38,728 nt of DNA from Frankia tisae (GTDB lineage: Bacteria > Actinomycetota > Actinomycetes > Frankiales > Frankiaceae). A program made the translations under genes and the position numbers. The first letter of the stretch is position 1. Every line of letters begins with the position of its first letter. Location of the stretch: contig NZ_JANEZT010000012.1 in assembly GCF_025403405.1 (NCBI RefSeq), positions 1-38,728 on the forward strand. The letters run 5' to 3'. Positions 12,173 through 37,149 of the stretch are shown in pieces. A model generated the notes under the pieces. That model saw only the letters and a list, made by a program, of their open reading frames with translations, searched no databases and was not told where the DNA came from.

Positions 12173-12262
12173 GTCGATTGATGCGGTACGGGCGACGGCG
12201 CGGCGCCCAGGACCGCCCTGGTGGCGTCATCCCGCGGGTCATGTACCTGGGGGGGGCCACGA

Positions 12263-13930: not shown

Positions 13931-13955
13931 CCCGCGGACCCCGCGCAGGGTTGCA

Positions 13956-15821: not shown

Positions 15822-15856
15822 ACCCGCGACCGTAACGGGTGACAGACTCCGTCCCG

Positions 15857-16666: not shown

Positions 16667-16869
16667 GGCCACCTTCGGCGGCCGCCCGGTGCCGCTGGTG
16701 GTTTCGGGTGTGTGCCGACCGCGACCATCGGTTCTGTCATCGTGTCCCGGGTGTGTGGCATGGGGGGAATTGGGCCCTGGGTGAGCTGGTTAACGTCGGC
16801 GAAACTGTCGGCGCGACGGCCGGGTCGGCTACTTTGAACGGATACATCGGCGAGACGAGGGGTTTTCGC
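16667..16869 (+). promoter_or_regulatory. Leader/promoter region of cysDN
   Basis: The 203-base gap before cysD has no gene. TACTTT at 16830-16835 fits a -10 box with about 35 bases to the GTG, but no good -35 is present. I find no recognisable riboswitch. Confidence 0.3.
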
Positions 16870-19064: not shown

Positions 19065-21359
19065 TCAACTGTTCGGCCGCAGCGCCTCGTCCGGCGGGAT
19101 CCGCGCCTCGCCGAGCGCCGCTGCCCCGGCGAGGATGGGCAGCCGGTCGTTGTTGGCGACCAGTGCCGGACTCTCCAGCCAGGCCAGGTACGCGCCTCGT
19201 TGCGCCGGGGTCATCGCCGCGGCCGGTCGGGGACTGCCCGCCGTGTCGAGGAAATCCGTCGCCGGACCGGTGATGTATCCGTCGGTGTGCGGATCCCCGG
19301 TGTACACCCGTCGCCGCCCGTCGCCGCCGGTCACCGCGATCGGTCGTAGCGGGTCCCCGGCGCGGCGCGCCCAGAGCTGGCGGGCGCTCGCCTCGTAGGC
19401 CGCGGCCCACTGCGGGCCGACCCGCGATGCCTCCCGCAGCTGGGCGAGGATCCACGCCGGCCGGACGGTGGACACGTCGCGGTAGCGCTCCCGCATGAGG
19501 GCCTCAACCATGTCCACCGTCACCCCGACGCCGAGATGGACGAATGTGGCGGCCGGATCCGTCGGGTCGATCGACGTGGCCACCGTGCCGAGCAGGTCGA
19601 GGATCACCGCCTGTCGCCGACGGTGGGCCGACCCGGCTTGCGCATGCTCGCGTAGCACCGCGTCGACGGCGTCGCCGAGGGCGCCGGCGAAGAACGCCTG
19701 CGCCCGAGCACCTCGCAGGTAGCCCAGCGCCCGCGGGCTCGACGGGTAGCCGCCGCCCGTGGCATTCCAGCCCCGCGTGCGCCCCGCCACCCGCTCGTCG
19801 AGCCCGGCCGCGTAGGCCGCGGCATCCCGACCGAGCAGCCCGGCGAGCGCACCGCCGCGCAGGCATTCCCGCAGCAATGCCCGCCACGCCGCGACCGGGA
19901 CCTCCCGAGCGGCGGGTGCCGCCGCCGGCGGGGAGACCGGCCCGGGAACGACCGCCGTCACCGCGTCGTACATCTCCTCCCGGTACGTCCGCAGCGCGGG
20001 GACGAGAGCGGCGCGCAGGTGCAGCGGCAGTGCCGGCCCGTCGGCGGCGTGGACGGCCCCGGCGAGGCGGGCGACGAAGTCCGCCGAGCCGCGCGGATCC
20101 GCCTGCCGCGCCGCCGGACCGCCGGCCGCGGCGATCAGCCCGGACCAGGCCCGCCCGGTTGCGTCGTCGAGCCCGACGGCTACCGGTAGCCCCAGCTCCG
20201 CGATGGCGGCGCCGCCCAGGACCGCCTCGACGTACCGCGTGGTGAACCGGGCCGCCAGCGCCGGTTCGGCGGCGATCGCGGCCAGCAACGCGCCCCGGTA
20301 CCCGCGGTCCGCCGTCGCGCGGAGCACCGTGCCCACGACCTGACCGGGCGCCGGCGCCCGGCCGGCCGCCGGTGCACCGGGTTCCGGTGGCCCGATCCCG
20401 GGGCCGAAGGCCAGCCGGCCCAGCCGGTCGAGTAACGCGCCGTCGACGTGGCCGACCGCCAGCAACGGGGTCAGCAGCACGGTCTCGGCGTGGTCGAGGC
20501 GTCCCCGGGTGTTGAACCGGCCCAGCCAGGAGTCGTCGAGCGACCGGCCGCGGGTATAAGCGGCAAACGTCCGGCCGAGAACGCCCTCGGCGTCCCGCCG
20601 GTCCACCCCGGACGGCAGCGCCGGCCGGTTGACCATCGGCCCACGGGCCCGTCCGGAGACGATGGTGAGCAGCTGCGCGAGCCCGGTCGGCCCGAGCGCG
20701 TCGTAGAAGCCGGCGATGAAGCCGGGGTCGCCGGCTTGCGCGCCCAGCAGGCCCAGCACTTCCTGCAGGCTGGCCGATGGTGCGCCGCGACCCGCCGGTG
20801 ATCCCAGCCGCCGCCCGGCGCGGGGATCGGTCGCGCGGGCCGGGTGCCCGCCCGCGCCCGCCGGCCCGACGCCGGACAACAGCGACCGGGCCGCGGCCCG
20901 GCCTGCGGCGGCTGCTGCCGCTCCTGCGCGCACAGTGTCGGGAACGGCCTCGGTCTCGCCCCTGGAGGTGGCCTCGGTGCCGAGGGCGGGTCGGGCATCG
21001 AGGAGCGCTGGTGCGCGGAGCACGGCCGGCGCGATGACAGCTGCCGTCGCGGCGAAGGACCGCTCCGCATCGTCGGCGCTCTCCGCCAGCGCGAGCCGGC
21101 GGCGCAGCATCGTGGCGTCGGCATCGAGCTCGTCGCCGAGCCGGGCCAGTCGAGCCGCCCAACCGGCCGGGCCGCCCACCTGCGCCAAGGCGTGGGCGAC
21201 CGTCCGCGCCCCGGAGTGCAGAGCCTCGCCGGCAGCCCGCACCGCAGCCGCAAGCGGGCGGAGCCGGACGGGATCGAGGACCACGCGGTCCCCGCCCGCA
21301 CCGGACCCGGGGGGTAGGGCCACAGCGGCGAGGTGGACGCCGGCACCGAGGCTCACCAC
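19065..21359 (-). CDS. Large uncharacterised protein paired with a WXG protein (DUF6571-like)
   Basis: A 764-residue Ala/Gly-rich protein with no signal peptide or clear membrane helix. I do not recognise a catalytic domain. Segments such as DPGFIAGFYDALGPTGLAQLLTIVSG and a C-terminal part with YEASARQLWARR and TDGYITGPATDFLDTAG recall large actinobacterial proteins encoded directly after small WXG proteins (the DUF6571 kind), but I cannot confirm this. The chosen GTG at 21359 starts just after the WXG gene stop (21365), implying coupled translation; the same frame runs upstream to 21527 but would overlap that gene. Pairing suggests a type VII-exported or WXG-scaffolded protein, possibly a toxin or surface factor. 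No secretion genes (EccC etc.) are in the window. Confidence 0.65.
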   Translation of the reverse strand: MVSLGAGVHLAAVALPPGSGAGGDRVVLDPVRLRPLAAAVRAAGEALHSGARTVAHALAQVGGPAGWAARLARLGDELDADATMLRRRLALAESADDAERSFAATAAVIAPAVLRAPALLDARPALGTEATSRGETEAVPDTVRAGAAAAAAGRAAARSLLSGVGPAGAGGHPARATDPRAGRRLGSPAGRGAPSASLQEVLGLLGAQAGDPGFIAGFYDALGPTGLAQLLTIVSGRARGPMVNRPALPSGVDRRDAEGVLGRTFAAYTRGRSLDDSWLGRFNTRGRLDHAETVLLTPLLAVGHVDGALLDRLGRLAFGPGIGPPEPGAPAAGRAPAPGQVVGTVLRATADRGYRGALLAAIAAEPALAARFTTRYVEAVLGGAAIAELGLPVAVGLDDATGRAWSGLIAAAGGPAARQADPRGSADFVARLAGAVHAADGPALPLHLRAALVPALRTYREEMYDAVTAVVPGPVSPPAAAPAAREVPVAAWRALLRECLRGGALAGLLGRDAAAYAAGLDERVAGRTRGWNATGGGYPSSPRALGYLRGARAQAFFAGALGDAVDAVLREHAQAGSAHRRRQAVILDLLGTVATSIDPTDPAATFVHLGVGVTVDMVEALMRERYRDVSTVRPAWILAQLREASRVGPQWAAAYEASARQLWARRAGDPLRPIAVTGGDGRRRVYTGDPHTDGYITGPATDFLDTAGSPRPAAAMTPAQRGAYLAWLESPALVANNDRLPILAGAAALGEARIPPDEALRPNS

Positions 21360-21364
21360 CGGCG

Positions 21365-21649
21365 TCAGCCGATCGCCCGCGGCGGGGCGCCGGGCGCCGT
21401 CGGCGCTCCGGCCGGGCCCGAGCGGGCCTGCTCGCAGACCAGCAGGCAACGGTCGAGCAGGGCGGTCGCCTCGGCGGCGAGGCGCCGCATCTGGTCGGCC
21501 CACAGCTGCGCCGCCCGGCCGTCCCACGCGCCGGCGCCGGTGGCCGCGACCCGGTCCAGGGCGGCCGTCACCTCCCGCCGGGTGCGCGCCACCGCGCCGA
21601 GCGCGCCGGCCGCCGTCGTCCGGGCTTCATCGGGGATCGTCATCCGCAT
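21365..21649 (-). CDS. WXG100-like small helical protein
   Basis: A 94-residue, mostly helical protein. W42-D43-G44 fits the WxG turn, placed between two amphipathic helices (TAAGALGAVARTRREVTAALDRV and AAQLWADQMRRLAAEATALLDRC). This is the fold of ESX/type VII substrates and of the N-terminal domains that pair with their effectors. Start choices ATG 21649 or ATG 21643 differ by two residues, and neither has a strong ribosome-binding site. The gene lies directly upstream of the 764-residue partner with five bases between. I am confident it is a real gene of WXG type; export is not shown. Confidence 0.65.
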   Translation of the reverse strand: MRMTIPDEARTTAAGALGAVARTRREVTAALDRVAATGAGAWDGRAAQLWADQMRRLAAEATALLDRCLLVCEQARSGPAGAPTAPGAPPRAIG

Positions 21650-21886: not shown

Positions 21887-23113
21887 TCATTCGGTCCCGC
21901 CGTACATCGCCCGGCCGCGGAACTCCCGTGCGTCGTTGCGGTAGTAGGGGCGCAGTTCCCGGATCACCTCGCCTACCCGGCCCGGACACACCACGCGCAG
22001 GTCACCGTCGCCGAGGGTGAACCGCCGGACGTCGGCGTACCGACCGGAGATCGCAGTCAGCTGACGTGGGATGCCCGGATCCTCCCGTTGGAGTTCGTCG
22101 ACGGCGCGGACGACCTCGGCCCGCACCGTGGCCAGCGCCTCGGCCCACCAGCTTCCCGGGGCGGGCAGCGGCCAGGTGTAGACGGAGGCGACCAGCTCGT
22201 GGATGCCGAGCAGTTGGGTCACGACTTTCTCCGCGTCGTCCAGATCCAGTCGGAGATACCGCAGATGGTTCAGGAACGCCGTGCGGTACTGGGATCGGTG
22301 GTCGCCGTGCCCACGCAGGGACACCCCGACGGCGGGGGGCGCGACACTGGAATGGGCGCAGTACAGCTCGTCGTCGAGGTCGACCAGGCGAAGCACGGCA
22401 CTGGCCGTCGCCGCGAGCGTCTCGAACCGGGCGAGTCCGTCCGGCCCCAGCCGCTCCTGCACATCCGCTGCCACGCTGACCAGGTCGAGCGCCTGGGCCA
22501 GCGGCTCGCGCCAGGCGGGGCCCAGCGCATCGAGAGTCCGGACGGCCAGTTCGGCCTCCTGGTCGGACGGCAGCCGCACCATGGTGCAGCGTAGCCAGAC
22601 GGGGAAGGCGGCCTCCCCGACGGGGGGCGTCAGACCCAGTGCGTCGAGCGGAGATGAGCTCAGGAGATCGCGCATGAATGCGTCGAAAGGCGTGGCGGAT
22701 GCGTCGCCATCAGCGGCGGTCCTGGCCGGCCCGAGGCCGGTGGGCTCCTGCCCGCTGTGGCCGGAGTCGGTGGGGTCCGTCGGGTCGGTGGGTGCCGGGT
22801 GCGAGCGGCCCCGGCGGCCCGCGCGCAGGATCTCTTCCACCTCGCCGATGGCACCCTCCCACACCTTGGCGTTCTCCCGGACCGACGCGCTGGTCAGGGC
22901 GTGCCACGCCTGACGAATCGCCGCCCCGGTCTCGGCCGCGGCCGGATCGGTGTCCGCCCGCGCGAGGAGCAGGGGCAGATACCGCAACGTCACGAGCGGT
23001 TCGTCCTCCCCGTCCGCGCCGCGGGCACGGCCGCCTCCGTCGAGGGAGTAGACGGTCCCCGGGCCGTCAGGCCTGCCGGCTCGATCGGGACCGCCGGCCG
23101 CCGCTGTCTGCAT
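21887..23113 (-). CDS. Unrecognised protein, last gene of the NTPase operon
   Basis: A 408-residue protein I do not recognise. It has no signal peptide or membrane segment. An N-terminal helical part (LVTLRYLPLLLARADTDPAAAETG, then VWEGAIGEVEEILRAG) is followed by a low-complexity Pro/Thr/Asp linker at about residues 103-135 and a conserved-looking helical C-terminal half (LRCTMVRLPSDQEAELAVRTL, YRTAFLNHLRYLRLDLDDAEK). The ATG at 23113 has AAAGG six bases upstream. It lies 77 bases after the ASKHA ATPase gene on the same strand, with a tandem repeat and hairpin between. Its position suggests an adaptor or partner of the ATPase/GTPase pair. No enzymatic motif was found. Confidence 0.7.
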   Translation of the reverse strand: MQTAAAGGPDRAGRPDGPGTVYSLDGGGRARGADGEDEPLVTLRYLPLLLARADTDPAAAETGAAIRQAWHALTSASVRENAKVWEGAIGEVEEILRAGRRGRSHPAPTDPTDPTDSGHSGQEPTGLGPARTAADGDASATPFDAFMRDLLSSSPLDALGLTPPVGEAAFPVWLRCTMVRLPSDQEAELAVRTLDALGPAWREPLAQALDLVSVAADVQERLGPDGLARFETLAATASAVLRLVDLDDELYCAHSSVAPPAVGVSLRGHGDHRSQYRTAFLNHLRYLRLDLDDAEKVVTQLLGIHELVASVYTWPLPAPGSWWAEALATVRAEVVRAVDELQREDPGIPRQLTAISGRYADVRRFTLGDGDLRVVCPGRVGEVIRELRPYYRNDAREFRGRAMYGGTE

Positions 23114-23127
23114 CGCATACCTTTCGT

Positions 23128-23159
23128 CGTCGTGGCGTCGTGGCGTCGTGGCGTCGTGG
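23128..23159. repeat. Intergenic tandem repeat, 8-bp unit x4
   Basis: CGTCGTGG is repeated four times without error. The last copy pairs with CCACGAC at 23169-23175, giving a 7-bp stem with a 9-base loop between the ASKHA gene and the next gene of the operon, which could attenuate or process the transcript. Confidence 0.85.
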
Positions 23160-23190
23160 GGTCCCGCGCCACGACGGGCCTGCCCAGCCG

Positions 23191-26100
23191 TCAGTGCGTG
23201 CCGTTGAAGGGGTAGAGGTCCGCGTCGAAGTCCTGCACCGTCGGGCTCATCGGCACGGTGAGCACCGCGCCCGGGCGCAGTTCGACCTCGGCGAGGTCTC
23301 GGGCCGCCAGGTACTCCGGCCAGCCGAGGTGGATCCGGGCCCGTCCCGTCGCGTCCAGCGACAGCAGGTGGACCGCTCCCGGCGCCGCCTCAACCGGTGG
23401 GACGGCCAGCTCGCCGAGTGTCTCGGGCGCCCCCTCCGGTGGCAGCGCGACCAGTTCCCAGAACCCGGTCCGGCCCGGCGGCGGCAGCGGGATCCGGGAC
23501 AGCACGCCCCGCACCAGGCGCCCGGGCTGCTCGGCCGGTTCGCGCGGGGCGACAAGGACGAAGGTCTCCGGGAAGGCGCTCGACGCATCGACCGGCACGG
23601 GCAGGACGAGCGTGCCCGCCTTCCGCGCGTCCTGCCCCTTCGCGACGGCGACAATCGGCCAGGGCCATCCGGTGATCTTCCGTTCCCCGGAGGTCGACCC
23701 GAAGTGTCGGTGGTTACCGCCGCCGGAGGTGGAGGGCAGGGCGGCGCCCACGTCCACACCCGGTCCCTCGACCTTGATGTGGCCCCGACCGAGGCTGAGG
23801 TTGACCGACGCGCGCAGACCGTCGTCGACGACGACCTGCATGAGTACCCGGGGACCGTGGTGCTGGGAGCTACCCGCCCACCTCTCGCCCGTCACGTCGT
23901 GGCCGCCCGCATGATCCCTGACCCGGAAACGGGCCCACTGGATCGGCACGGTGGCGTCGATCGGCCGGAACAGTTCCACGTCGTTGCGCAGCTCCATCCA
24001 GCGGGACCGCGCGGACGGCCGGGTGCCCGCCACGCCGCACACCAGCGGGTCGCCCATGCGCAGCACCCGATCCGGCCCGCCGATCGCGCCGACGAGGTCG
24101 AACGAGCACGGCAGCCTGGTAACCAGCGTGTTGGTCTCGATCTGCAGGCCGGTGCGCAACGCGACCCGGTCGACGCCGCTGTCGTCCGCCTGGGCGTACC
24201 GGACGCTGTGACCGAACCCGACCGCCCAGGCCACCCCCATCGACACGGCCTCCTTGGCGGACCGTTCCTCGACGACGACCGCGTCCTCGTTCCAGACCAG
24301 CGGGGTGCCCTCCCGCAGGTCGGTGACGGCCAACCGGTCGACGACGGCCTGGCGCACCATGGGCATGCCGCTCGTGCGCCCGCACAACGCGATCTGGTCC
24401 AGGGCCAGGGCATCGTCGGGAGCTGCGCTGAACACGCCCACGACGAGGTCGGCCGCGATCTGCGCCGCCCGGTCGACGACCGGGCGGACGACGCGGGCGA
24501 AGTCCGCCGGGGACAGGTGCAGTTCGATCGCGGGCGCGTCGGCGAACTGCGCGGGCAGATCGACGAGGGTCTGCGCGTTCGGGATGGGATACGGCTTGCC
24601 CATGACCCGATCCCGCGCGCCCAGGGCCTTCTTCGCCTGTTCCGCCTCATCCCACAGCTTGGCGAACACGGCGGCCCGCTGCGCCCCGTGCGTCGGGACC
24701 AGCCTGTCCAGCTCCCGACGCACCGCGCCGGGGACGGGCTTGGCCGCGCCCTGGTCGAGGATGCGCGCGGCGAACGACCGGTGGCCACCAGGTGCCGCGG
24801 CATTCTCGGGCCCGTGCCCGCCGTCCGTCCCGGCCTTCCAGGCGAGCAGCTCGTCGGCGATCAGTGCCTTGATCCAGTACAGCACGCGCAGGGTCAGATA
24901 GTTGCCGCCGAGCTGAGGATGCCCGGTGGCGCCGAGTACCTCGGGTCGCAGCTCGAAGCGGCGGCCGTAGGCATCGGCCTCGATCTCGGTGAGGTTGAGG
25001 CGGACCAGTGCGATGTCGGTGGTACCGCCGCCGATGTCGATGACGAGGATGATCCGCCGCCAGCGCCCGCCCCCGCCGCCGGTGCGCACCGGATGCGCGC
25101 CGGCCCGCAGCAGCTCGGCGCCGAGCTCCTCACTGGCTCCCACCGTGAGCATCGTGAAGTACAGCGCGGCGCCCACGCCCTCGTCGAAGGTGCTGTCGCC
25201 GGTGTCCGCGTCCCGGCCGGTGACCGGGTCGCGAAACGCGCGGCCGACCACCGCCATGAGGTGTTCGCGCACGTCCGGCGGCATCATCGTGGGGTAGGTG
25301 ACGACGATGCGCCCGCGTAGCTGGCGCCGCTTCTCCTCGGTGTCGATCGTCCTCGTGATGCGGGGGTCGCGGGCCGCGAAGTCCTCCAGCGGGTTGCGCA
25401 GCGCGGCGAACGCCCTCTCGACGAGGTCAGCCGAGGTGTGCTTGGCCGCGGCCCGCTGGGCGTCCGCGTCGAGCTGGCGGAACTCGGCCAGCGAGTCCAG
25501 CCGGGGCGGGGCACCGAGGTTGCGGAACTCCGACTTGAGACCGCGCACGGTGACCTCGACGCCGGGTGGCGGAACCTCCCGGTGCCACAGCCGGAGGTCG
25601 AGCCGGCGCAGGTCGGTGATGTGCACGGCGCTGGACAGGGTGCTGTACGTGTCATCGTCGGCGGAGTACGTCACCGGGAACATGCCGGTCAGGTCGCGGG
25701 GTGGTACGGCGAACGCCGCGCGGAAACAGTCGTCGCGTAGCCGGGCCAGGGCCCGGACGGCCGGGGAGTCGGCCTGGCGCGCCACCACCTCGACGGCCGC
25801 GGCCACGCTGCTGACAACGGCCTGGTTGTCGTCCATCCCGTCGGCGAGGAAGGCCGCGATGTCGGCCAGGTCCCGGCTCTCCCCTCGCGCGCCGAGCTCC
25901 TCGGCCAGCCGCGCGCGCAGCGTCGCCCACGCGTCGACCTCCACCTCGGCCGGCGCCTCGGCGCTCAGCAGGGTCGCGAACTCCTTCGCCAGCACTTCGG
26001 CCTGGTGGTAGTCGATCGGGGTGGTGAGGTCCACCTTGTCCCGGTAGCTCATCGTCGCCGTGATCGCCGTCGTCCCGAAGTCGATGACGGTGAAGCCGAT

Positions 26101-26625
26101 CGCCTGGTTCGACGCCGGCTCCTCGGCGGCTCCCGTTCCGTCCTTGGCAGCCCCCGCCGACGCCTCGCCAGCCCCCGCCGACGCCTCGCCAGCCCCGGCC
26201 GGCGAGGCGGCGAACCAGTCAGTGGGCAGCTCCAGTCGCAGGGTGGCCTGGGTGGTGCCACCGGGCCAGGTCGCGAACCAGGTGATGGCCACGGTCTGAC
26301 CGGCGGCGGCCGCCGCGACGTCGGTCGGCAGGTCCACCGGGCGGGTCAACGGCGTCTCGATCGTGGCCGGCGCGTCCGGTGGCACGGGTTGGCACCAGGA
26401 GTCGAGCAGCCAGCGCCGCAGTGCCTCGGGCGTCGAGCCGGCCACCTCCACTCGGATCGCGGGCAGCCGCTGGCCGTCCCGCTCGGCGATCAGGCGGATG
26501 CGGGGCATCACGTAGCCTTGGTCGAGGACCCCGCCGGGGCTGGCCGCCCAGCCGTCACCCATCCACGGTTGGTAGGGCTCGCGCAGCGCGGCACCCGGGG
26601 TGGATCGGATCACGAACCCGCTCAT
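23191..26625 (-). CDS. Giant Hsp70/actin-fold (ASKHA) ATPase
   Basis: A 1144-residue ATPase of the Hsp70/actin superfamily. The phosphate-1 loop FTVIDFGTTAITATMSY is near residues 178-194, the phosphate-2 loop VIDIGGGTTDIALVRL at about 528-543, and the adenosine-type motif LCGRTSGMPMVRQAV near 742-756. Some 340 residues separate the two phosphate loops, far more than in DnaK, so a large insert sits in the first lobe. Residues 1-175 and the last 300 are beta-rich extensions with no canonical DnaK substrate domain. The ATG at 26625 has GGGAGGA seven bases upstream. The dynamin-like GTPase gene ends about 70 bases upstream. The layout recalls the SrfB-type Hsp70-like proteins encoded with GTPases in enterobacteria, but homology to them is untested. 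Confidence 0.82.
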   Translation of the reverse strand: MSGFVIRSTPGAALREPYQPWMGDGWAASPGGVLDQGYVMPRIRLIAERDGQRLPAIRVEVAGSTPEALRRWLLDSWCQPVPPDAPATIETPLTRPVDLPTDVAAAAAGQTVAITWFATWPGGTTQATLRLELPTDWFAASPAGAGEASAGAGEASAGAAKDGTGAAEEPASNQAIGFTVIDFGTTAITATMSYRDKVDLTTPIDYHQAEVLAKEFATLLSAEAPAEVEVDAWATLRARLAEELGARGESRDLADIAAFLADGMDDNQAVVSSVAAAVEVVARQADSPAVRALARLRDDCFRAAFAVPPRDLTGMFPVTYSADDDTYSTLSSAVHITDLRRLDLRLWHREVPPPGVEVTVRGLKSEFRNLGAPPRLDSLAEFRQLDADAQRAAAKHTSADLVERAFAALRNPLEDFAARDPRITRTIDTEEKRRQLRGRIVVTYPTMMPPDVREHLMAVVGRAFRDPVTGRDADTGDSTFDEGVGAALYFTMLTVGASEELGAELLRAGAHPVRTGGGGGRWRRIILVIDIGGGTTDIALVRLNLTEIEADAYGRRFELRPEVLGATGHPQLGGNYLTLRVLYWIKALIADELLAWKAGTDGGHGPENAAAPGGHRSFAARILDQGAAKPVPGAVRRELDRLVPTHGAQRAAVFAKLWDEAEQAKKALGARDRVMGKPYPIPNAQTLVDLPAQFADAPAIELHLSPADFARVVRPVVDRAAQIAADLVVGVFSAAPDDALALDQIALCGRTSGMPMVRQAVVDRLAVTDLREGTPLVWNEDAVVVEERSAKEAVSMGVAWAVGFGHSVRYAQADDSGVDRVALRTGLQIETNTLVTRLPCSFDLVGAIGGPDRVLRMGDPLVCGVAGTRPSARSRWMELRNDVELFRPIDATVPIQWARFRVRDHAGGHDVTGERWAGSSQHHGPRVLMQVVVDDGLRASVNLSLGRGHIKVEGPGVDVGAALPSTSGGGNHRHFGSTSGERKITGWPWPIVAVAKGQDARKAGTLVLPVPVDASSAFPETFVLVAPREPAEQPGRLVRGVLSRIPLPPPGRTGFWELVALPPEGAPETLGELAVPPVEAAPGAVHLLSLDATGRARIHLGWPEYLAARDLAEVELRPGAVLTVPMSPTVQDFDADLYPFNGTH
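26149..26204. repeat. In-frame 21-bp repeat in the ASKHA gene
   Basis: AGCCCCCGCCGACGCCTCGCC occurs twice in tandem (26149-26169, 26170-26190) with a third partial copy. It encodes GEASAGA repeats in the linker just before the first phosphate loop. Confidence 0.8.
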
Positions 26626-26692
26626 CGGGCTTCCTCCCGTTCTCGCTTCCACATCGCCGGCCCACGCCGGCCCTGCCGTCGACGTGCTGGGC

Positions 26693-29233
26693 TCACGACC
26701 CGCTGCCGGAGGTCCGGAGCAGCTCCTCGAGGTGCCGCGCCGACGGGATGCCGGCGCCGAGGTTGTCGAGGTAGCGGTCGAGGACCGGCCCGATCCGGGC
26801 GAGCAGCTCGACGATCTCGCCCTGCACGAGTTCGGTCAGCCGGCTCTCGGCCGCCAGCCGCATCCGGTTCACGGTGAACACGTGGCGGTCCCGGTGGGAC
26901 TGCGAGCGGTTCACCTCGTCCGTCACGCGGATGACCTCCGGATGCCACGGCAGCCTCCGGTCGGGGTCGAAGGGGGCCGCCCTGCGCCGGCGGTCCTGGC
27001 GGGCTTCCGCGGCGGCTGCGGCCGAGTCGAGTCCGGTCAGCCAGGTGGCGACCCGGTGCCGCATTCTGGCGTCGCCGACGAGGCGGTCGATGCGGCTGAC
27101 CCGGTCGGGGAACAGCCGTACGACGAGCGCCCGGATCCGCTCGTCGGCCAGCCGCGGCTCCAGCAGTGCGAAGCGCTCCCGCTGGCGGCCTTCCCAGTCG
27201 CCGACGACGTCGAGCAGAACCGCGCGGTACCTCGTGACGAGGGAGGCCGCGCTGCGGGCGAACTGGTCGACGAGCACGCTGCCGTGGTTCGGCACGGCCA
27301 CGCCGTTCGTCGCGCCGTACTGCGGATTGTCGGGTCGGGGGCCGAGGTCGTCGTCGACATCGTCGTCGACCGGCCCGTCATCGAACGGGTGGTCGTCGGG
27401 GTGGCCGCTGCCTGCGGGGCCGGTGGCCTGGTCCAGCTGGCGGATCCACGGATGGGTCGCGTCCAGTCGATCGATGATTATTCCCCAGTGCGGCCAGCTG
27501 TCGACCTCCTGCCGGGAATCGGCCGCGATCGCCCGCAGCAGGGCAACGCGCGTGCCGTCCCGCTCGGTTGTCAGCCGATGCGGGGCGCGGAAGTGGGCGA
27601 GGTCGCGGCGCATCGCGTTGGTGGCGGCGGCGAGCTCGCCGACCAGCTCGCGCAGGTCCCGCCCATCCTGGTCCGACGTCGGCGTGTTCCGGTTGCGCAA
27701 CCAGGTCAGCTGCTCGGCGTAGCGGCTCGTGGCGAGATCGAGCCGCTGCTCCGCCCGGCGCAGCTGGGCGATCTTGTTGGCGAGGCCGTGCACGCGGGCG
27801 TGCTCCTCGACCACGCGGCGCAGCTCCGACAGACCGCTGTCGTAGCCGTACTCGCCCAGCAGCTCGGCGATCCGCCGTCCCGGACGTCCCTCGTCGCCGC
27901 GTGCGAGAGCCTGCCCGGTGGCGCTCCACGCGCTGCGCTGCGCGACGGCCGACACCGCGTCGATGCCCGGGGGAGCGACGCCCGCGCCGGCCAGCGCCGC
28001 CAGCGCCGACACCAGCACGAGGCGGTCGAGCGGTTCCCCCCGAGCCTGGCTGCGCACGGTGAGGTTCTCGGCGGCGACGCACACATCCCGCAACAGCGAG
28101 GCCCGGTCCAGCAGGCCGTTCAACCGGGTCGCGGGGGCGCCGACGGGGGGACCCACCTGGTCGAAGAAGTTCGCGGCGACCACGGTCGCCCGGTTGAGGT
28201 CGTCGTCGCCGTAGCCGAGCGTGCGCAGCTGTGCGTAGTAGGCCTCCAACGGGTGCGTCACCGGCTTGGGCGCGTGCAGGACGGCGAGGATCGCGTCGAT
28301 GCCGCGCAGCTCGTGTCGGCTCAGGTAGAGATCCCGGCTGCCGGAGCCGTCGGCGCCGAGCCCGGGGAAGTCCCGGATCTCCACCTCCAACCCGTGCAGG
28401 TCCTCCAGGGGCCAGGCCCGCGGGTCGACCGACACCGTGCAGACGATCCGGCGGATCAGCGGGAACGCCGCCGCGAGGTGTTCGGTTCCCAACGGATCAG
28501 CCCAGGTCAACGGCCGGCGGCGGGGTCGATACTCGGGATAGGCGGTGGGCACGGCGCTCTGGGCGGGCAGGTTCACCCCTTCGGCGATCAGCCCGGGGTC
28601 GATGCGCCAGGGCCGCCCGCCCAGCGCCGCGGGCTGCTGGTGGACCTCGCCGAGTGCGTCCCGGATCCGAGCGAGCTCCAGCGCCATCTGCTTGCCGAGG
28701 TTGTCCGGGCCGGCCTTCCCCCACAGCCGCGTGCGGCACCAGGCGTCGACCCGTTCCCAGCCCTCGGCGCGGGGCCGGGCGCCCCGCAGCGAGTCGGCCT
28801 CCAGATCCAGGCCGGACGCCTCGCTGTGCTCGACGAGCCGGTCGAGGATGAACGTGATGCACGCGTCGATCTCGTCCACCGTCATGAACTCGACGGTCGC
28901 CTCGGTGATGCTGGTAGGCGCGCCGACAGTCCCGGCGCGCAGCCGCAGGACGGTCACGTTCCCCGTGGTCGGCGACGGATTCGTCGGCAGGAGGCGAGGT
29001 GCGCCGAGCAGCGCGCCGAGCAGCGCCGACTTCCCGTTGGAATACCCGCCGACGGTGGCGATGGACACCGGTGCGGAGGCCTTGTCGAGGATCGAGGTGG
29101 CGAGGTCGCGGATCTCCTGGCGAAGCTCGGTCAACCGACCTGGGCCCGACTCGGGCGGTGGGTCGTTCGCCAGGCCGGTGAGCGCGTCCGCCGCCTTCCT
29201 GCGGAGCGCAGCGATCTGTTCGTACTCGGTCAT
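26693..29233 (-). CDS. Dynamin-like large GTPase
   Basis: An 846-residue GTPase of dynamin style. The G1 loop is GGYSNGKSALLGALLG (GGYSNGKS at 62-69) and is followed by LLPTNPSPTTGNVTVLRL, the usual G2 threonine region of bacterial dynamins. G3 is DFPG at 288-291 and a G4-like NFFD is at 355-358. Long helices follow, with an acidic linker near 605-630 (FDDGPVDDDVDDDLG). No membrane helix is seen; membrane contact would come from an amphipathic tip or from the DUF4407-like partner. The ATG at 29233 overlaps the stop of the upstream membrane-protein gene (TGATG), so the two are translationally coupled. Bacterial dynamins remodel or guard membranes, including in phage defence; which applies here is not known. 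Confidence 0.85.
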   Translation of the reverse strand: MTEYEQIAALRRKAADALTGLANDPPPESGPGRLTELRQEIRDLATSILDKASAPVSIATVGGYSNGKSALLGALLGAPRLLPTNPSPTTGNVTVLRLRAGTVGAPTSITEATVEFMTVDEIDACITFILDRLVEHSEASGLDLEADSLRGARPRAEGWERVDAWCRTRLWGKAGPDNLGKQMALELARIRDALGEVHQQPAALGGRPWRIDPGLIAEGVNLPAQSAVPTAYPEYRPRRRPLTWADPLGTEHLAAAFPLIRRIVCTVSVDPRAWPLEDLHGLEVEIRDFPGLGADGSGSRDLYLSRHELRGIDAILAVLHAPKPVTHPLEAYYAQLRTLGYGDDDLNRATVVAANFFDQVGPPVGAPATRLNGLLDRASLLRDVCVAAENLTVRSQARGEPLDRLVLVSALAALAGAGVAPPGIDAVSAVAQRSAWSATGQALARGDEGRPGRRIAELLGEYGYDSGLSELRRVVEEHARVHGLANKIAQLRRAEQRLDLATSRYAEQLTWLRNRNTPTSDQDGRDLRELVGELAAATNAMRRDLAHFRAPHRLTTERDGTRVALLRAIAADSRQEVDSWPHWGIIIDRLDATHPWIRQLDQATGPAGSGHPDDHPFDDGPVDDDVDDDLGPRPDNPQYGATNGVAVPNHGSVLVDQFARSAASLVTRYRAVLLDVVGDWEGRQRERFALLEPRLADERIRALVVRLFPDRVSRIDRLVGDARMRHRVATWLTGLDSAAAAAEARQDRRRRAAPFDPDRRLPWHPEVIRVTDEVNRSQSHRDRHVFTVNRMRLAAESRLTELVQGEIVELLARIGPVLDRYLDNLGAGIPSARHLEELLRTSGSGS

Positions 29234-30630
29234 CAGGAGTTCCCCTTCCCTGCCCCCGGTGGCCGGCGCGCCCGCCATTCCAGCGACCGCACCCCGTTGC
29301 GTTCGACGAAATCGATGTAGTCCAGTTCGGTGGTGTGCCAGGCCCGCATACCCGCCCGAGCCACGCTCGCCTCCAGGGCCGTCGCGTAGCGACGGGCGTC
29401 GAACATCGTGGCGTTGTGCTCGCTGAGCGCGGCGTCCTGCAGCGCGATGGCCTCGTCGTAGGGGCTCGGCCGGGCGAGCATCTTGATGACCAGCGGCAGC
29501 AGGTCGAAGGCCAGCAGGGTCCCTCGGATGATCCACAGCCACTGGGCGAGCGACCGGTTCTCGTGCACGATCTGGTTGAGGGCCGCATGGCGGGCGAGGA
29601 AACCGTCGCTGCGCGCCACCTTGGCGAGAAAGTCGGCGGGAGCGGCCGGCAACGGCTTCGCCGTCAGGCCCTGGACCGACCGATCGGTGGTGTTGCGCTC
29701 CCGGATCTCCGCCTGGAGCGCGTCATTCCTGGTGTTGTAGTCACTGACGAGAAGGTGGTAGGCCTTTCCGGTCGGCAGGAACTCCTCCGCGGGGGTGATG
29801 TGGGCACCCTGGTCGGTCACCTGCGTGAACAGCCCGTCGACCACCGGCTGGTCGGCGCCGATCCTTGTGTCGAGGCTCGCGAGTTTCGCCTGGAGCGGGG
29901 CGAGTTCTTCGGCCCGCAGCTGCTCCCGCTTGTCCTGGATGAGGGTGTGGTGGGTGTCGGCGAGTTTCTGATTGACCTCGGGGGCGAAGATGATGAGCAG
30001 CAGCGCTTCGCTGACGAGCAGCGCCGCGAGGACCGCGAGCGTGAAACGCAACGCGTACTTCGCGAGGGTCGACACCCGGGACGGCGCCGGGTCGAGGTCG
30101 GGCGGCACGGGCCGCCAGCCGGCGGCGGGTCCGGTGTTGTCGGGGAGGTCCGGGGCGCCGGGGGGAGCCGCGGCCGCGGGCCGGTTGGCCGCCGCCTCGG
30201 CCGCGGCGCCCGGCGAGCGATCCGGCGCGAGCAGCCCGGTCACCAGCACGGTGTCGTCGCCTGCGCCGCGTCGGCCCGCCCGGCCGCGTCGACGGCGCTC
30301 GGACCGGTGTGACCGGGGCCGTTTGGGTTCCATCACGATCACCCGGTCGGCGGCGAAGATGAACATCGCCCACAGCAGCCCGAACGGTAACAGCAACGGA
30401 TTGAAGTGACCGACCACCACCGAGCCGAACACCGTGAACGAGGTGGCAGCCAGGATCGCGACGAGCAGCAGGAACAGGCCGTACGCGGAGTAGAGCAGCC
30501 GCAGGCGGATGCTCCCCAGCTTGGTGGGGTCCACGCCCGCGCACCACAGCAGCACTCGGGTCGGTGGGGATGCCCGCCGGACCTGCGGTAGCGCGTCCTC
30601 GGCCGGGCGGGACGCGGTCGGATCTGACAT
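29233..30630 (-). CDS. DUF4407-like four-helix membrane protein
   Basis: A 465-residue inner-membrane protein. Four helices are predicted: LLYSAYGLFLLLVAILAA, LLLPFGLLWAMFIFAADRVIV, FTLAVLAALLVSEALLLIIF and LWIIRGTLLAFDLLPLVI. The second helix with its trailing Asp-Arg and the spacing of the others fit DUF4407. A basic and Pro-rich loop separates helices 2 and 3. Between helices 3 and 4 is a long, partly coiled region (DKREQLRAEELAPLQAKLASL) that probably lies outside the membrane. The ATG at 30630 has GGGGGAGA just upstream. It is first in an operon with the dynamin-like GTPase and probably anchors that complex. DUF4407 function is unknown. Confidence 0.82.
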   Translation of the reverse strand: MSDPTASRPAEDALPQVRRASPPTRVLLWCAGVDPTKLGSIRLRLLYSAYGLFLLLVAILAATSFTVFGSVVVGHFNPLLLPFGLLWAMFIFAADRVIVMEPKRPRSHRSERRRRGRAGRRGAGDDTVLVTGLLAPDRSPGAAAEAAANRPAAAAPPGAPDLPDNTGPAAGWRPVPPDLDPAPSRVSTLAKYALRFTLAVLAALLVSEALLLIIFAPEVNQKLADTHHTLIQDKREQLRAEELAPLQAKLASLDTRIGADQPVVDGLFTQVTDQGAHITPAEEFLPTGKAYHLLVSDYNTRNDALQAEIRERNTTDRSVQGLTAKPLPAAPADFLAKVARSDGFLARHAALNQIVHENRSLAQWLWIIRGTLLAFDLLPLVIKMLARPSPYDEAIALQDAALSEHNATMFDARRYATALEASVARAGMRAWHTTELDYIDFVERNGVRSLEWRARRPPGAGKGNS

Positions 30631-31621: not shown

Positions 31622-32434
31622 CTATGGACGTGCCGCCGAGTGCGGTGGCAGCGCGACGCGGAAGCGGACCGGCTCCCGGGCCGGTGCCGGGACGTCCTGG
31701 AACCGGCCCCGACGGAGGCGGCGGACCTCCGCTTCGGCGCTGAGAGTGCCGGCCAGCTCGGCGGCGGCGGCCGGCAGCTCCAGCAACACCATCCCGGCGA
31801 TGTGCCGATGCCACAGCGGCCGGCCCGGCTGGCCCTGGAACGTCCAACCGAACGTGCGGTTGCCCTCTCCGAACGGGGTGCACACCGGCCGTGCCTCGAC
31901 CGGCGGGGCCGGGTCGCCTCCCCTGGCGACGACGTACTCGCCGAACTGGGCCGCGAGCCCGCTGAACTCGCGCAGCCACCGGTCGTCGATCGTGGACGCG
32001 CGGTCGTCCTCCGCCGCCGCCCTCGGCTCGGCCGGGACCTCGACGACCTCCCGGCTGGGAGCAAGCTGTAACGCTGCGGCGTACTCGCCGTCGATGTCGA
32101 CGCTGACCCGCACCCGGCCGTAGCTCAGCTCGCCGGGCAGCTCGTCGAGGTCGAACGGGATCGGCACGGCGAGGTGGCGCATCGACTCCACCCCGACGCG
32201 CAGGAAGAAGGACGCCGGGAACTCCTCCGGTGGCATGATCGACGGGATGATGTAGCTGAACGTGACGCCGCCGACCTCGGACTCGTCCTGCTCGCCGTCC
32301 CTGCTCAGAGTGCTTTCCGTGATGACGAAGGCGCGACGGGCGAGGATCTCGTCGGCTCGCAACGGTCGCATCATCGGTACCGGCGGCGGCGAGATCGGCT
32401 CGCCCGGCTGATCCGACGCATCACCCGAATACAC
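31622..32434 (-). CDS. Unrecognised beta-rich protein
   Basis: A 270-residue protein I do not recognise. It has no signal peptide or membrane segment. The N-terminal half alternates short hydrophobic strands (FPASFFLRVGVESM, YGRVRVSVDIDGEY), and the C-terminal half has TFGWTFQGQPGRPLWHRHIAGMVLLELPAAAAEL. The GTG at 32434 has AAGGGGG seven bases upstream. It diverges from the CHAT protease gene with 72 bases between, so the two may share control. A substrate, inhibitor or sensor of the protease is possible from position only. Confidence 0.65.
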   Translation of the reverse strand: MYSGDASDQPGEPISPPPVPMMRPLRADEILARRAFVITESTLSRDGEQDESEVGGVTFSYIIPSIMPPEEFPASFFLRVGVESMRHLAVPIPFDLDELPGELSYGRVRVSVDIDGEYAAALQLAPSREVVEVPAEPRAAAEDDRASTIDDRWLREFSGLAAQFGEYVVARGGDPAPPVEARPVCTPFGEGNRTFGWTFQGQPGRPLWHRHIAGMVLLELPAAAAELAGTLSAEAEVRRLRRGRFQDVPAPAREPVRFRVALPPHSAARP

Positions 32435-32506: not shown

Positions 32507-35500
32507 GTGACATCGGGGGAAACGCGTGTCGGCCTGGCCGGCTGGCGTGTCGGGCAGGAGCATCGGCGGCGCCTCGACGGCTGGAAGGCGGGAACAGGTG
32601 GCCCGGCACGCACGGCCGTCAGCGCGCCACCGCCCAGCACGGATGGCGGGGACGGCGGCTCATCAGCACGCATCAGGTGCCTGGTCGGCTCGGGCGAGGT
32701 CGACCTCGGTAGCGGGCAGGCGCCGCTGGCCTCGCCGCCGGTCTCGCCGCCCGCCGCGTCGGGTCGGGGCGGGGCGGCGCACGGGCCGTCAGTCGCCCGC
32801 CGCTTCGCCCGCGCGTGCTGGGCGCTGCATCCCGACGGACGGCTGCTGTTCGCGCCCGCGTCGGCCCACGCCCGTCAGGACCTCTTCCCGCTGTCCGGCT
32901 GGTACGAGACCACGGCGGACGGCTGGCGCGTCTCGGCCGCGCGGTCCGGTGCCCCGGGGCTGGACGCGGCGGTCCAGGGACTGATCGCGCCGGCCGTGAG
33001 CGGCTGGCGGTTCGTCGGCGAGTACCGCTGCCGGGACGATGAGCGGCTGGTGGTGGTCCCGCTGAGCGCGGCCCTGGCCGACGCTGAGGATCGGCCGGAC
33101 CGGCTCGGGGTGGACCTGCTTGACGGGGTGCCCGTGCCCCTGATCTTCCGGGTCCAGCTGACCGGCACGGTGGGCACGGCCGCCTTCGGGCCGCTGGCAG
33201 CCGATCTCACCGTCGCCGACCCGGTGGCGGGCAGCGCGGATCCGGTGGAGATCCTGCTTGCCGCGGCCGAATCGCCGCCGGCCGAGCTCGGCGACGTCGG
33301 CGAGGTGCTCTGGCTGACGAGCGTTCCCGGGCTGAACCGCATCGAGACGGCGGACTATGGTCTGTCGATCTCCGCCGGCACGCTCGACTGCCGGGTGCGT
33401 GGCGGCGACGAGGCCGCGCTCGGGGTGACGGTCTCCGTCGAGGCTCCCTACCTCGGCGCGATGCCGGTGCCGGTCGCGCAGGCCCGCCTGGTGCTGCACT
33501 TCCGCCCGGATGGCACGCGGGGGCCGGCATCGTCGGGGGGCGATGGCCGCGGCGGCCGTGGTGGTCGTGGTGGTCACGGCGGTTCGGCGAGCGTGGCCGG
33601 TGCGGTGGTCCCGGCCGGTGCGGCGGGCGTCGAGGGGCACCCGGTCCGGTGGAGGGTGGAGGGCCGGCTGACCGCGCGGACGGTGGCGGCGTTCGGCCCG
33701 TCCGTCGGCTATGACGCGGCGGTGTCGGGAACGGCCGTGGCCCGTACGCCGGACGAGCTGACCGGGACCGCGTTCGAACGGCAGTGGGCCGCCGGTCGTC
33801 GCCGGCCGGGCCTGCTGCCCGGCGTCATACCCGGTGAGCCCGGCGGTGTCGGTGGCACAGCTGGTGACGACGGCTGGCGGGCCGTCCGGGACCTGGCCTT
33901 CGACCGCGTGCTGGCACACGAGCGCGCCGCCGCGACCCCGCTGCTGTACCTGGCGCTGGCGGGATGCCGTGCCGAGCAGGAACGGACCAGGTCCGATCCG
34001 CTCCGTCAGCATTCGGTCCTGATCGACGAGATGAACATCCTCACCCGTCTCGTCTCCTGCCACCGGTCCGACGACGACCCGGGTGCCCTGCTGCGGGTAC
34101 TGCGGGACAGCACGGCCGTGCACAGCACCCTGGGACGCGTGCCGTATCTGGCGCCGATCGAGCGGGCCACGGCCTCCCTCGTCGTCGCCAACCAGACCGA
34201 TGCCCTCGAACAGCGACGGCGCCAGTTGGCCGACGAGCTGGAACGGATCGACCTGCTCGACGCGTCCACCGACGTGTTCGAGGCGCTCGCGGACCTGTTC
34301 TGCATCCTCGGACGGCCGGATGCCGCGCTCGCGGCGGCGGAACGCGGCCGCGCCCGCACGCTGGCCGATCTTCTCGCGGGCGCCGCCGTGGAGGCGCTGT
34401 CCCCGGCGGCGATCCGCGCGGCGGTGACGGCGGGGGGCCGTACGGTGCTCGAGTACCTCGTCGGACCGGAACGCAGCTGGGCCTGGCTCGTGTCGCCGGC
34501 CGGGGCGATCACCCCGGTGCCCCTCGCGGTCACCCGGGCAACTCTCGACACGCTGACGGGAGAGCTGCTGGCCGCGCTGGATCCGACCGTCGCGGCCGAG
34601 CCGGGCGGCTCGCGCCCGACCCGTCATCCCACCGAACTACTGGCCAGGCTGCACGATCACCTCATCGTGCCGATCCCACCGGCTGCCCTGCCGGGTGACG
34701 GCGACGGCCTGGCGGTCGTGCCCCACGGTGCGTTGCTGCGGGTGCCATGGACCGCCCTGCTCGACCGCGGTGTGATGGGTGCCGGCTACTCGGCTGGTGC
34801 CGGCTGCTCAGCTGGTGCCGGCTGCTCAGCTGGTGCCGTCGACGGCCGCTATCTGCACGAGCGGTTCGCCCTCAGCCTGCTGCCCTCGATCGGCACGCTG
34901 GCCACCCTCGGGATCACCGCTGCGCCGCCGGCCAGACCCAGCGGGCTGCGCGCGCTGGTGAATCCCACCCCGATGCCCGCCCGCCTGCCCTCACTGCCGG
35001 TACTCGAGGAGGCCGAGGAACTCTTCCGGGATCTCTTCCCGCCGGGTGCCACCCGGGTCCACTCGCGTGCGGAGGCGACGCTCGACCGGCTGCGGGAGGC
35101 GCGGGCGGCGGAGGTGATCGTGCTCGGAACGCACGGCGTCGCAGACTGGACGCGGGCCGGCGACCGGTACATCGTCCTCGCGCCGCCCTCGGACCCCGAC
35201 CCCGACTCCGGAGCCGGCGGGAACGCGGGCTTCGTCGACATCCGCGCCCTGTCGCTGGACAGCCCGCTGGTCGCCCTGCTCGCCTGCCGATCCGGGGTGG
35301 GCCCGATCACCAGCGACGGCGTACTGGCGATCAGCCGCGCCTTCCTGCTCGCCGGGGCACGCTGCCTGCTCGCGAGCCTGTGGTGGGTCGGAGAGGAGAC
35401 CGGTCTGGAGATCGTCTGGCGGATGGTGCGGATCTGGCTGACCGAGGGGACAAGCCGGGCGGAGGCGTTTCGCCGGGCGGTGGCGGGTCTTGCGGCCGAA

Positions 35501-35561: not shown

Positions 35562-36215
35562 TCACCAGGCCCAGGCGGCGACGGTGCGACCGTCGTGGAG
35601 CAGAACGCGGACGGGACGGAACCTGTCGGCGTGGATCCGAAGATCCCGTCCGTCCGGGTCGGCCCGCCGCGGGCCGGCCGCCCGCCACCGATCATGCACC
35701 CGCAGATCGTGATAGATCCGCGGGGAGACCAGCACCTCGACATCCCCGTCGGGGTTCGGGCCCGGCGCGTCGCCGGCCCGCGGCCGTGGCTGCACGGCGC
35801 CACCGCACAGGCGCCGGACGGAGTCGACGACCTCACCGACGAAGCGTTCACCGGCGAGCATCGCGAGCCCCTCGTCCACTGCGATGCGCACCATGATCCG
35901 GTGCTGCGGTGGCCGCCGGATGTTCAGCCGCCGGGTGGCGATCCGCAGGAAGTGGGCCAGCCGCCCGATCATCCCGGGCTCGTCCATCCCGACCGCGAGC
36001 AGGACGACGGCGCCGTCCGGCTCGACCTGCCGGCTGATGTGCAGGGCAGTCAGCCCGGCCGCGCGCATGGCGGCCTCGAGCAGACCGAGGACCACGGCAC
36101 CGCGCTCGATCTCGCTCGACACCCGCCCGCGGACCATGGCACCGTCGCCGACCCGGCGCACCGCCAGCCCGAGTCGGCGAATCGCCGGTCCGACCGGGGG
36201 AAGCGGACCCGTCAC
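35562..36215 (-). CDS. Second, degenerate cyclase-fold protein
   Basis: A 217-residue protein whose pattern parallels the cyclase-fold protein at 30733: a helix (GLLEAAMRAAGL), a strand pair with an Asp (ISRQVEPDGAVVLLAVG), a helix (RLAHFLRIATRRLN) and a strand (RIMVRIAVDEG), then GERFVGEVVDSVRRLC. The equivalent of the first metal Asp is missing from RGRVSSEIERGAVV, so it is probably not catalytic. The GTG at 36215 has GGAGG six bases upstream, much better than the longer frame to 36404. It sits between the CHAT gene, convergent by four bases, and the Crp-like gene 166 bases upstream on the same strand. Confidence 0.6.
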   Translation of the reverse strand: MTGPLPPVGPAIRRLGLAVRRVGDGAMVRGRVSSEIERGAVVLGLLEAAMRAAGLTALHISRQVEPDGAVVLLAVGMDEPGMIGRLAHFLRIATRRLNIRRPPQHRIMVRIAVDEGLAMLAGERFVGEVVDSVRRLCGGAVQPRPRAGDAPGPNPDGDVEVLVSPRIYHDLRVHDRWRAAGPRRADPDGRDLRIHADRFRPVRVLLHDGRTVAAWAW

Positions 36216-36381
36216 GTGCCACCTCCGCGGGAGAACCGACGACCTGCGGGCCGTCCGGGGAGCGTGACGCAGCCGTGCGATGGTCACCCCATCATCCGAT
36301 GGGCACCGGCGTGGCCATCCATGCTCCCGGCACCGGCACACCATGCTCCCGGCATCGGCGCGGCCAGCGGTTCCCGCGGAT

Positions 36382-37149
36382 TCAGCCGGCGACTCCGACG
36401 CCATGGGCGACGCGCCGCAGTCCGGCTTCGTCTTTTATCACCAGTCCGCCCCGCGCGGACTCGGCGAGAATTCCGTCGGCGCGTAGCCGGCTGATTCCGC
36501 GTTGTACGGATACCTCGGCCGCATTGATCAGCCCCGCGAGGTCACGCTGGCTGAGGGGCAGGCCGATGACGACACCCCGGGGAAACGAGCGTCCGTGCGA
36601 CGATGACAACCGCAGGAGCAGCCGACTGAGCCGCACGAGGGTGCTGCCGGTGAGCGCGGCACGGTCATCCATCATCGAGCGGAGCCGGTCGGCCAGCATC
36701 GCCTGCAAAGCTGTGTTCGCAGCCGGATACCGGTCCAGGAACTCGCGAAACGCCACCGCCTCGATCACCCGGGCGACGACCGGCGAGATCACGGTGACGG
36801 TCGCGGAGCGCGGCGATCCACTCAGCATCGCCATCTCGCCGACGACGTCACCCGCCACGCGAAGGGCGATGAAGGCATCGTCACCACCCTCGGTCGTCAC
36901 CGTGACCTTGGCGGTCCCGGTGAGCAGGGCGTAGACGCGGGTGCTGGGATCACCCTGGTGCAGCAGGGCCCGGCCGGTCTCGAACTCCTCGTGCCGGCCG
37001 AGGGTGAGCAGGGCGGCCCTTGCCGGCGCGTCGAGCAGGGCGAGCAGGCTGCCCGGGTGCCAGCGGCCCGGCCCGCCGTTATGCGGGCGAGAATGCATCG
37101 CCGAGCCCTGACGGAGCCGATCGGAACGTGTTTGAGCGATGTCACGCAC
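36382..37149 (-). CDS. Crp/Fnr family transcriptional regulator
   Basis: A 255-residue regulator with a cyclic-nucleotide-binding domain (about residues 35-150; LLHQGDPSTRVYALLTGTAKV, GDVVGEMAMLSGSPRSATV) and a C-terminal winged helix (PLSQRDLAGLINAAEVSVQRGISRLRADGIL). The phosphate-binding segment GEMAML is followed by SPRSAT, the order and residues of Crp cAMP-binding pockets, so it may bind a cyclic nucleotide. The GTG at 37149 has a G-run six bases upstream; an ATG at 37098 is an alternative. The neighbouring cyclase-fold gene makes a nucleotide-responsive unit likely, though the ligand is unknown. Confidence 0.85.
   Translation of the reverse strand: MRDIAQTRSDRLRQGSAMHSRPHNGGPGRWHPGSLLALLDAPARAALLTLGRHEEFETGRALLHQGDPSTRVYALLTGTAKVTVTTEGGDDAFIALRVAGDVVGEMAMLSGSPRSATVTVISPVVARVIEAVAFREFLDRYPAANTALQAMLADRLRSMMDDRAALTGSTLVRLSRLLLRLSSSHGRSFPRGVVIGLPLSQRDLAGLINAAEVSVQRGISRLRADGILAESARGGLVIKDEAGLRRVAHGVGVAG

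Follow-up and report, generated by a model that had tools for sequence, protein, structure and literature searches.

A block of nine genes on a single contig of a 7.07-Mb actinomycete genome (C33, 38,728 bases, 73% G+C, analysed over its whole length and referred to below as the window) probably encodes a previously undescribed machine for responding to stress or viruses, with SrfABC as a distant relative; this role is suggested at the sequence level by the caspase-like protease and the nucleotide-signalling genes that adjoin its operon. The operon contains the gene of a dynamin-like GTPase followed directly by that of an Hsp70/actin-fold (ASKHA) ATPase; comparison of gene order in related loci shows that these two form an obligate pair, usually followed by a gene for a 408-aa protein (P408).

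Organization and extent of the locus

The earlier note described four genes (DUF4407 membrane protein, dynamin, ASKHA and P408) lying head-to-tail on one strand, and this description was borne out: all four are intact, occupy the minus strand between 21887 and 30630, and distribute their G+C over the codon positions as real genes do (Table 1). The reported one-base overlap is exact, the dynamin ATG beginning at 29233 with the last base of the DUF4407 stop codon (TGATG). The genes are real, but the extent assigned to the unit was too narrow: the syntenic block continues to 37149 and includes also the cyclase-like, 270-aa, CHAT and CRP genes.

Table 1. Genes of the block, in order of their coordinates in the window
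Coordinates	Strand	Product	Remarks
21887..23113	-	P408	408 aa, mostly helical, undescribed family; after ASKHA in most loci
23191..26625	-	ASKHA (Hsp70/actin-fold) ATPase, SrfB-like	1144 aa from ATG
26693..29233	-	dynamin-like GTPase, weakly SrfC-like	846 aa; Dynamin_N match
29233..30630	-	DUF4407 membrane protein	465 aa from ATG; four hydrophobic segments; PF14362
30733..31593	+	class III nucleotide-cyclase-like protein	286 aa; oriented away from operon; weak profile match to cyclase structures
31622..32434	-	270-aa protein, fold not recognised	homologues beside operon in loci L013 and L053
32507..35557	+	CHAT (caspase-like) protease, putative effector	CHAT domain C-terminal, E 3.7e-36
35562..36404	-	second, degenerate cyclase-like protein	matched by cyclase-like family profile
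36382..37149	-	CRP-family regulator, cNMP-binding domain	gene overlaps second cyclase-like gene

An 820-aa protein of no recognised family is encoded on the same strand at 19065-21527, 359 bp downstream of the P408 gene; no homologue was found in the related loci, and the gene was not counted in the unit. Positions 12221-19028 carry a sulfate-assimilation-like cluster (an APS kinase/ATP-sulfurylase-like fusion, a member of the inositol monophosphatase family, a PAPS reductase, a CysN-like EF-Tu-type GTPase and a sugar transferase). The window gave no hit in Rfam and tRNA scans.

Conservation and distribution

Relatives were gathered by genome searches, and conservation was checked by a six-frame profile scan of the collected loci; one set of matches is incomplete, so that the counts are lower bounds. 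Among the loci, L021 repeats L016, L045 repeats L022, and L015 and L016 come from the same genome as separate contigs. The dynamin gene directly precedes the ASKHA gene in every locus that is not cut by a contig end (at least about 20 actinobacterial genomes), and P408 homologues follow ASKHA in 14 loci, with four Streptomyces-type loci giving no P408 match. DUF4407 precedes the pair in Frankia, Streptosporangium and the more distant genome G258, but is not universal, since two of these four Streptomyces-type loci, L019 and L022, have in its place, directly before dynamin, the gene of a small membrane protein with a single helix. The recurrence of the same gene order in about 20 genomes argues that the set is more than a chance arrangement. 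This neighbourhood survey, suggested by the earlier note, upholds the combination of DUF4407, GTPase and Hsp70/actin-fold ATPase as a real and conserved unit; of the four-gene set originally proposed, the dynamin/ASKHA pair stands, while the membrane partner varies and the set has to be enlarged by the neighbouring genes.

When ASKHA and dynamin were searched separately in the same draw of 396 genomes, the same two genomes were matched, and the distance matrices of the two families are correlated (Mantel r 0.84, 0 of 5000 permutations), a value to which the common history of the species contributes in part. Like accessory conflict systems, the set has a rare and patchy occurrence: it was found in 2 of the 396 genomes drawn, in 5 of 58 relatives, in 5 of the 247 genomes sampled from a large Streptomyces-like genus and in 6 of 121 from the G258 family. 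Among the matches listed, carriers are only Actinobacteria, and the named ones are filamentous. No relative was found in the viral contigs searched, nor in plasmids queried with the window ASKHA and with the ASKHA and dynamin of L018; thus, nothing points to mobility by these routes, and carriage by phages or plasmids, considered as a candidate, gained no support.

Proteins of the operon

The window ASKHA matches the HSP70 family (PF00012) with E 8e-4 and 18.1 bits, under the cut-off of 20.6 bits. The profile of its aligned relatives matches DnaK structures at 7.6e-8, and the AlphaFold2 model (pLDDT 73.6, pTM 0.72) aligns with DnaK over residues 185-1139 (VIA Z 24-26). Full-length DnaK aligns with about 465 ASKHA residues, up to DnaK residue 506, while the nucleotide-binding domain taken by itself aligns with about 360. 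The predicted structure thus clearly contains an ATPase domain of Hsp70 type and may contain a substrate-binding part of that type as well. The relatives retain the phosphate-1 (DFGTT), phosphate-2 (DIGGGTTD) and adenosine (CGRTSGMP) motifs, which together with the fold place the protein in the Hsp70/actin (ASKHA) superfamily. Thus, it shares with Hsp70/DnaK the ATPase-domain fold, these motifs and about 100 further aligned residues that reach into the substrate-binding domain, but it is nearly twice as long, exhibits an extra N-terminal domain and insertions, and remains below the Pfam threshold of HSP70.

The dynamin-like protein matches Dynamin_N above the cut-off (E 5e-9, 36.8 bits, cut-off 27), and its family profile matches the structure 2j68 of the Nostoc bacterial dynamin-like protein BDLP at 3.1e-9. 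Its P-loop GGYSNGKS (G1) and its DFPG motif (G3) are intact, and G4 is degenerate (in most members it reads NxFD and lacks the usual lysine), which makes it a dynamin family member with an incomplete motif set. The claim that both NTPases keep their motifs therefore holds for ASKHA and for G1 and G3 of the GTPase, but not for G4. The DUF4407 protein is identified by its match to PF14362 (E 8.5e-41), and its hydropathy profile reveals the four hydrophobic segments.

P408, noted earlier as unrecognised, has indeed no match in Pfam or NCBIfam. Its AlphaFold2 model, a weak one, comprises a helical core (142-350, mean pLDDT 60), and because structure comparisons (Foldseek, VIA) retrieved only common helical arrangements (best Z 7.6), no fold is claimed for it.

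Relationship to SrfABC

In profile comparisons the ASKHA family is closest to SrfB by sequence, with the fold of Hsp70. SrfB (PF07520) is matched by 9 of 11 ASKHA members (best 3.3e-6), as against 7 of 11 for HSP70 (best 8.3e-4), and the match of the L018 ASKHA extends over about 130 residues (447-584 to SrfB 502-628). The canonical HSP70 encoded beside the L019 operon gave no SrfB match in the same library (to E 0.01). For the five ASKHA members listed in detail the SrfB scores are 12-22 bits, under the cut-off of 27.1 bits, and the window ASKHA scores only 5.6 bits (E 4.2). The dynamins of L019 and L027 match SrfC (PF10139) at 14.9 bits (E about 0.008; cut-off 28.1 bits), and these matches are collinear, the N-terminal part aligning with the SrfC N-terminus and residues 497-578 with 528-606; the window dynamin does not match SrfC. 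A search for SrfB in 198 actinobacterial genomes gave no match, but neither did its control.

The likeness to SrfABC proposed by the earlier note thus survives as remote homology, since the ASKHA family is closest to SrfB and the dynamin family is weakly and collinearly similar to SrfC. Judged by these profiles, the relation of dynamin/ASKHA to SrfC/SrfB is remote kinship and not family membership, because the detailed matches lie under the Pfam cut-offs and the window proteins match weakly or not at all. Both systems have a gene for an Hsp70-fold ATPase of about 1000 aa beside a gene for a dynamin-like GTPase of about 800 aa, an adjacency found here in all loci that are not cut by a contig end. 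Unlike the proteobacterial SrfABC, the locus is actinobacterial, P408 has no Pfam or NCBIfam match that would link it to SrfA, and DUF4407 or another membrane protein is added, whereas srfABC is a three-gene operon without DUF4407, CHAT, cyclase-like or CRP genes (PMC6950479).

Genes associated with the operon

A second Frankia genome, G004, keeps the whole block in order (P408, ASKHA, dynamin, DUF4407, cyclase-like, 270-aa, CHAT, second cyclase-like, CRP), with 53% identity for the CHAT protease, 53% for the second cyclase-like protein and 69% for the CRP regulator (L050), and with an additional second DUF4407. This shorter DUF4407 gene lies between the operon and the cyclase-like gene (L013, 17478-18446). 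Overall, the Frankia loci couple the pair to cyclase-like and CHAT genes, and the complete block with CRP is present in two genomes. In Frankia sp. AiPs1, DUF4407 has beside it the cyclase-like gene and one whose product is homologous to the N-terminal part of the CHAT protein. An extra copy of that N-terminal part, devoid of the CHAT domain, was also observed in G004 (L050, 8792-10222).

The CHAT protein conserves the histidine (GTHG) and cysteine (LACRSG) expected of a CHAT protease. Direct repeats of an 18-bp unit, GGTGCCGGCTGCTCAGCT, at 34778-34848 in its gene may encode a linker of variable length. In G013 the effector seems to have been swapped: genes for a TIR protein (E 1e-7), for a counterpart of the 270-aa protein and for another CHAT-domain protein (E 2.8e-5) occupy the matching place, upstream of the operon on the opposite strand (L053, 4895-9922). 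The 270-aa homologue of L053 is recognised with E 7e-18, and that of L013 is 61% identical. The association with CHAT or TIR was found only in Frankiaceae, the Streptomyces and Streptosporangium loci having no obvious toxic effector nearby.

Class III nucleotide cyclases possess two metal-binding aspartates and a catalytic asparagine/arginine pair. The profile of the first cyclase-like protein weakly matches cyclase structures (E 0.017-0.1), with no Pfam cyclase match; it keeps both metal-type aspartates and the arginine and has isoleucine at the asparagine position. Because the cyclase-like proteins exhibit isoleucine or valine at this catalytic position, the two metal-type aspartates being kept, they may bind rather than make a nucleotide. 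The gene is syntenic in L013 and L016 and adjoins the operon also in L027 and L040. The family is single-copy in G258, G540 and G610, each copy within about 20 kb of the operon. In Frankia, 1-5 copies occur in most genomes, and also in genomes without the operon, so that the link of the family to the operon is specific in some lineages only. Cyclase-like genes were also seen near a Tubulin_2 gene away from the operon (G747, contig C128; G570, contig C251), with a DO-GTPase match in G747.

The CRP protein has two recognised domains (cNMP_binding, E 1.1e-19; HTH_Crp_2, E 1.5e-13), and carries the GE...RSA pattern of cAMP-binding CRPs. Homologues lie beside the operon in L050, L027, L040 and L046, and two distant genomes, G258 and G540, have CRP and cyclase-like genes after the operon.

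Relationship to known conflict systems

The GTPase-centred conflict systems described by Kaur et al. 2020 combine a DO-GTPase and GAP1 with tubulin, HSP70 or kinase/vWA partners (PMC7159879); the text of that paper contains no mention of dynamin, DUF4407 or SrfB. The present module resembles them in the combination of a GTPase with an HSP70 or tubulin, in its membrane linkage and in its patchy occurrence in filamentous actinobacteria, and genes typical of them are found beside it: DO-GTPase genes in L019, L043/G504, G540 and G610, HSP70 genes in L019, L040 and L046, an HSP70-WD40 fusion in G258, and a Tubulin_2 gene, the sole one of each genome, in G517 and G525. It differs in that the GTPase is of the dynamin family, the ASKHA is SrfB-like and not a canonical HSP70, and GAP1-N2 genes, present in 8 of 16 carriers, never occur at the dynamin/ASKHA locus. 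In the window genome GAP1-N2 is on contig C699, as are both copies of the DO-GTPase, none being in the window, while the operon is on C33. A simple GAP1-N2 system was therefore rejected, and the module is a relative of the GTPase-centred systems in company and logic, not a member. Two further arrangements were observed: in G258 the operon, CRP and cyclase-like genes are followed by two more dynamin-like genes and the HSP70-WD40 fusion (L051, 3983-9864), and in G493 a 1195-aa WD40-repeat protein is encoded beside the pair (L041, 3089-6676).

Among bacterial dynamin-like proteins, DynA of Bacillus subtilis delays phage lysis and supports membrane integrity, but is described without ASKHA, DUF4407 or CHAT partners (PMC8844932). 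No PADLOC defence model covers the window proteins beyond their P-loops. In the literature searched, with most subscription journals and preprints outside its scope, no paper was found that combines DUF4407 with dynamin.

Possible functions

The reading that we favour, with chances only slightly short of even, is that the genes of the locus make up one accessory machine for responding to stress or infection, in which a membrane-anchored GTPase/ATPase chaperone switch would control an apoptosis-like effector. DUF4407 would anchor the dynamin at the cytoplasmic membrane, and GTP-driven assembly of the dynamin would sense or restrain membrane damage, e.g. from phage. The Hsp70-like ATPase, with P408 as a possible partner or adaptor, would set the threshold, either by keeping a client inactive or by remodelling the assembly; the activated complex would free the CHAT protease (or the TIR protein and different CHAT protein found in a relative), so that cell proteins would be cut and the cell stopped or killed. 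The cyclase-like proteins may bind or make a nucleotide signal, to which CRP would couple expression. In favour of this reading are the gene order in about 20 genomes, the co-occurrence in the same two of 396, the Mantel correlation, the nine-gene block in the second Frankia and the single-copy cyclase-like genes close to the operon in G258, G540 and G610, together with CHAT in the window, TIR and CHAT at the matching place in G013, the DO-GTPase, HSP70 and Tubulin_2 neighbours and the effect of DynA on phage lysis. On the other side, CHAT and TIR are confined to Frankiaceae, cyclase-like genes are also frequent elsewhere in Frankia, their products seemingly without the catalytic asparagine, and neither the viral and plasmid searches nor PADLOC gave corroboration.

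Or perhaps dynamin, ASKHA and DUF4407 repair or remodel stressed membranes, like PSP or DynA, CHAT and cyclase only reporting stress without killing? Dynamin and Hsp70 folds would suit membrane and protein repair, DynA has the corresponding effect on membrane integrity (PMC8844932), and many loci have no effector genes; such envelope maintenance is nevertheless unlikely, since neither the rare and patchy spread (2/396, 5/247, 6/121) nor the swapping of CHAT and TIR partners resembles housekeeping repair. Still less probable is that the locus is an actinobacterial SrfABC that does what SrfABC does in Proteobacteria, be it export, cytotoxicity or host interaction. The SrfB matches of 9/11 ASKHA members, the collinear SrfC matches and the failure of the canonical HSP70 to match SrfB favour this view, but the matches listed in detail are under the cut-offs, P408 has no recognised relative, four kinds of attached genes are foreign to the three-gene operon, and the function of SrfABC is itself unsettled. 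Streptomyces dynamins act in sporulation septation, and a device for morphogenesis or sporulation, with dynamin and an actin-fold protein on septal membranes, would agree with the restriction of the matches listed to Actinobacteria, the named ones filamentous; this is very improbable, as only 5 of 247 genomes of the sampled Streptomyces-like genus carry the operon, though Streptomyces generally sporulate.

A broader form of the favoured response-machine reading would define an undescribed class of immune machines, with a membrane-anchored SrfC-like dynamin and SrfB-like Hsp70 switch, interchangeable CHAT/TIR effectors and nucleotide control, of which SrfABC would be a branch and not a dedicated virulence operon; we regard this generalization as rather doubtful.

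Implications

Descriptions of SrfABC range from virulence factor to effector to toxin, and its function is not settled. A remote actinobacterial relative found beside caspase-like proteases, TIR, DO-GTPases and tubulin suggests an ancestral NTP-controlled role in conflict or stress for SrfABC-like systems, which is testable in non-pathogenic Streptomyces. If this is true, the Hsp70-plus-dynamin switch would join the known ways in which bacteria may set the threshold for self-destructive effectors.
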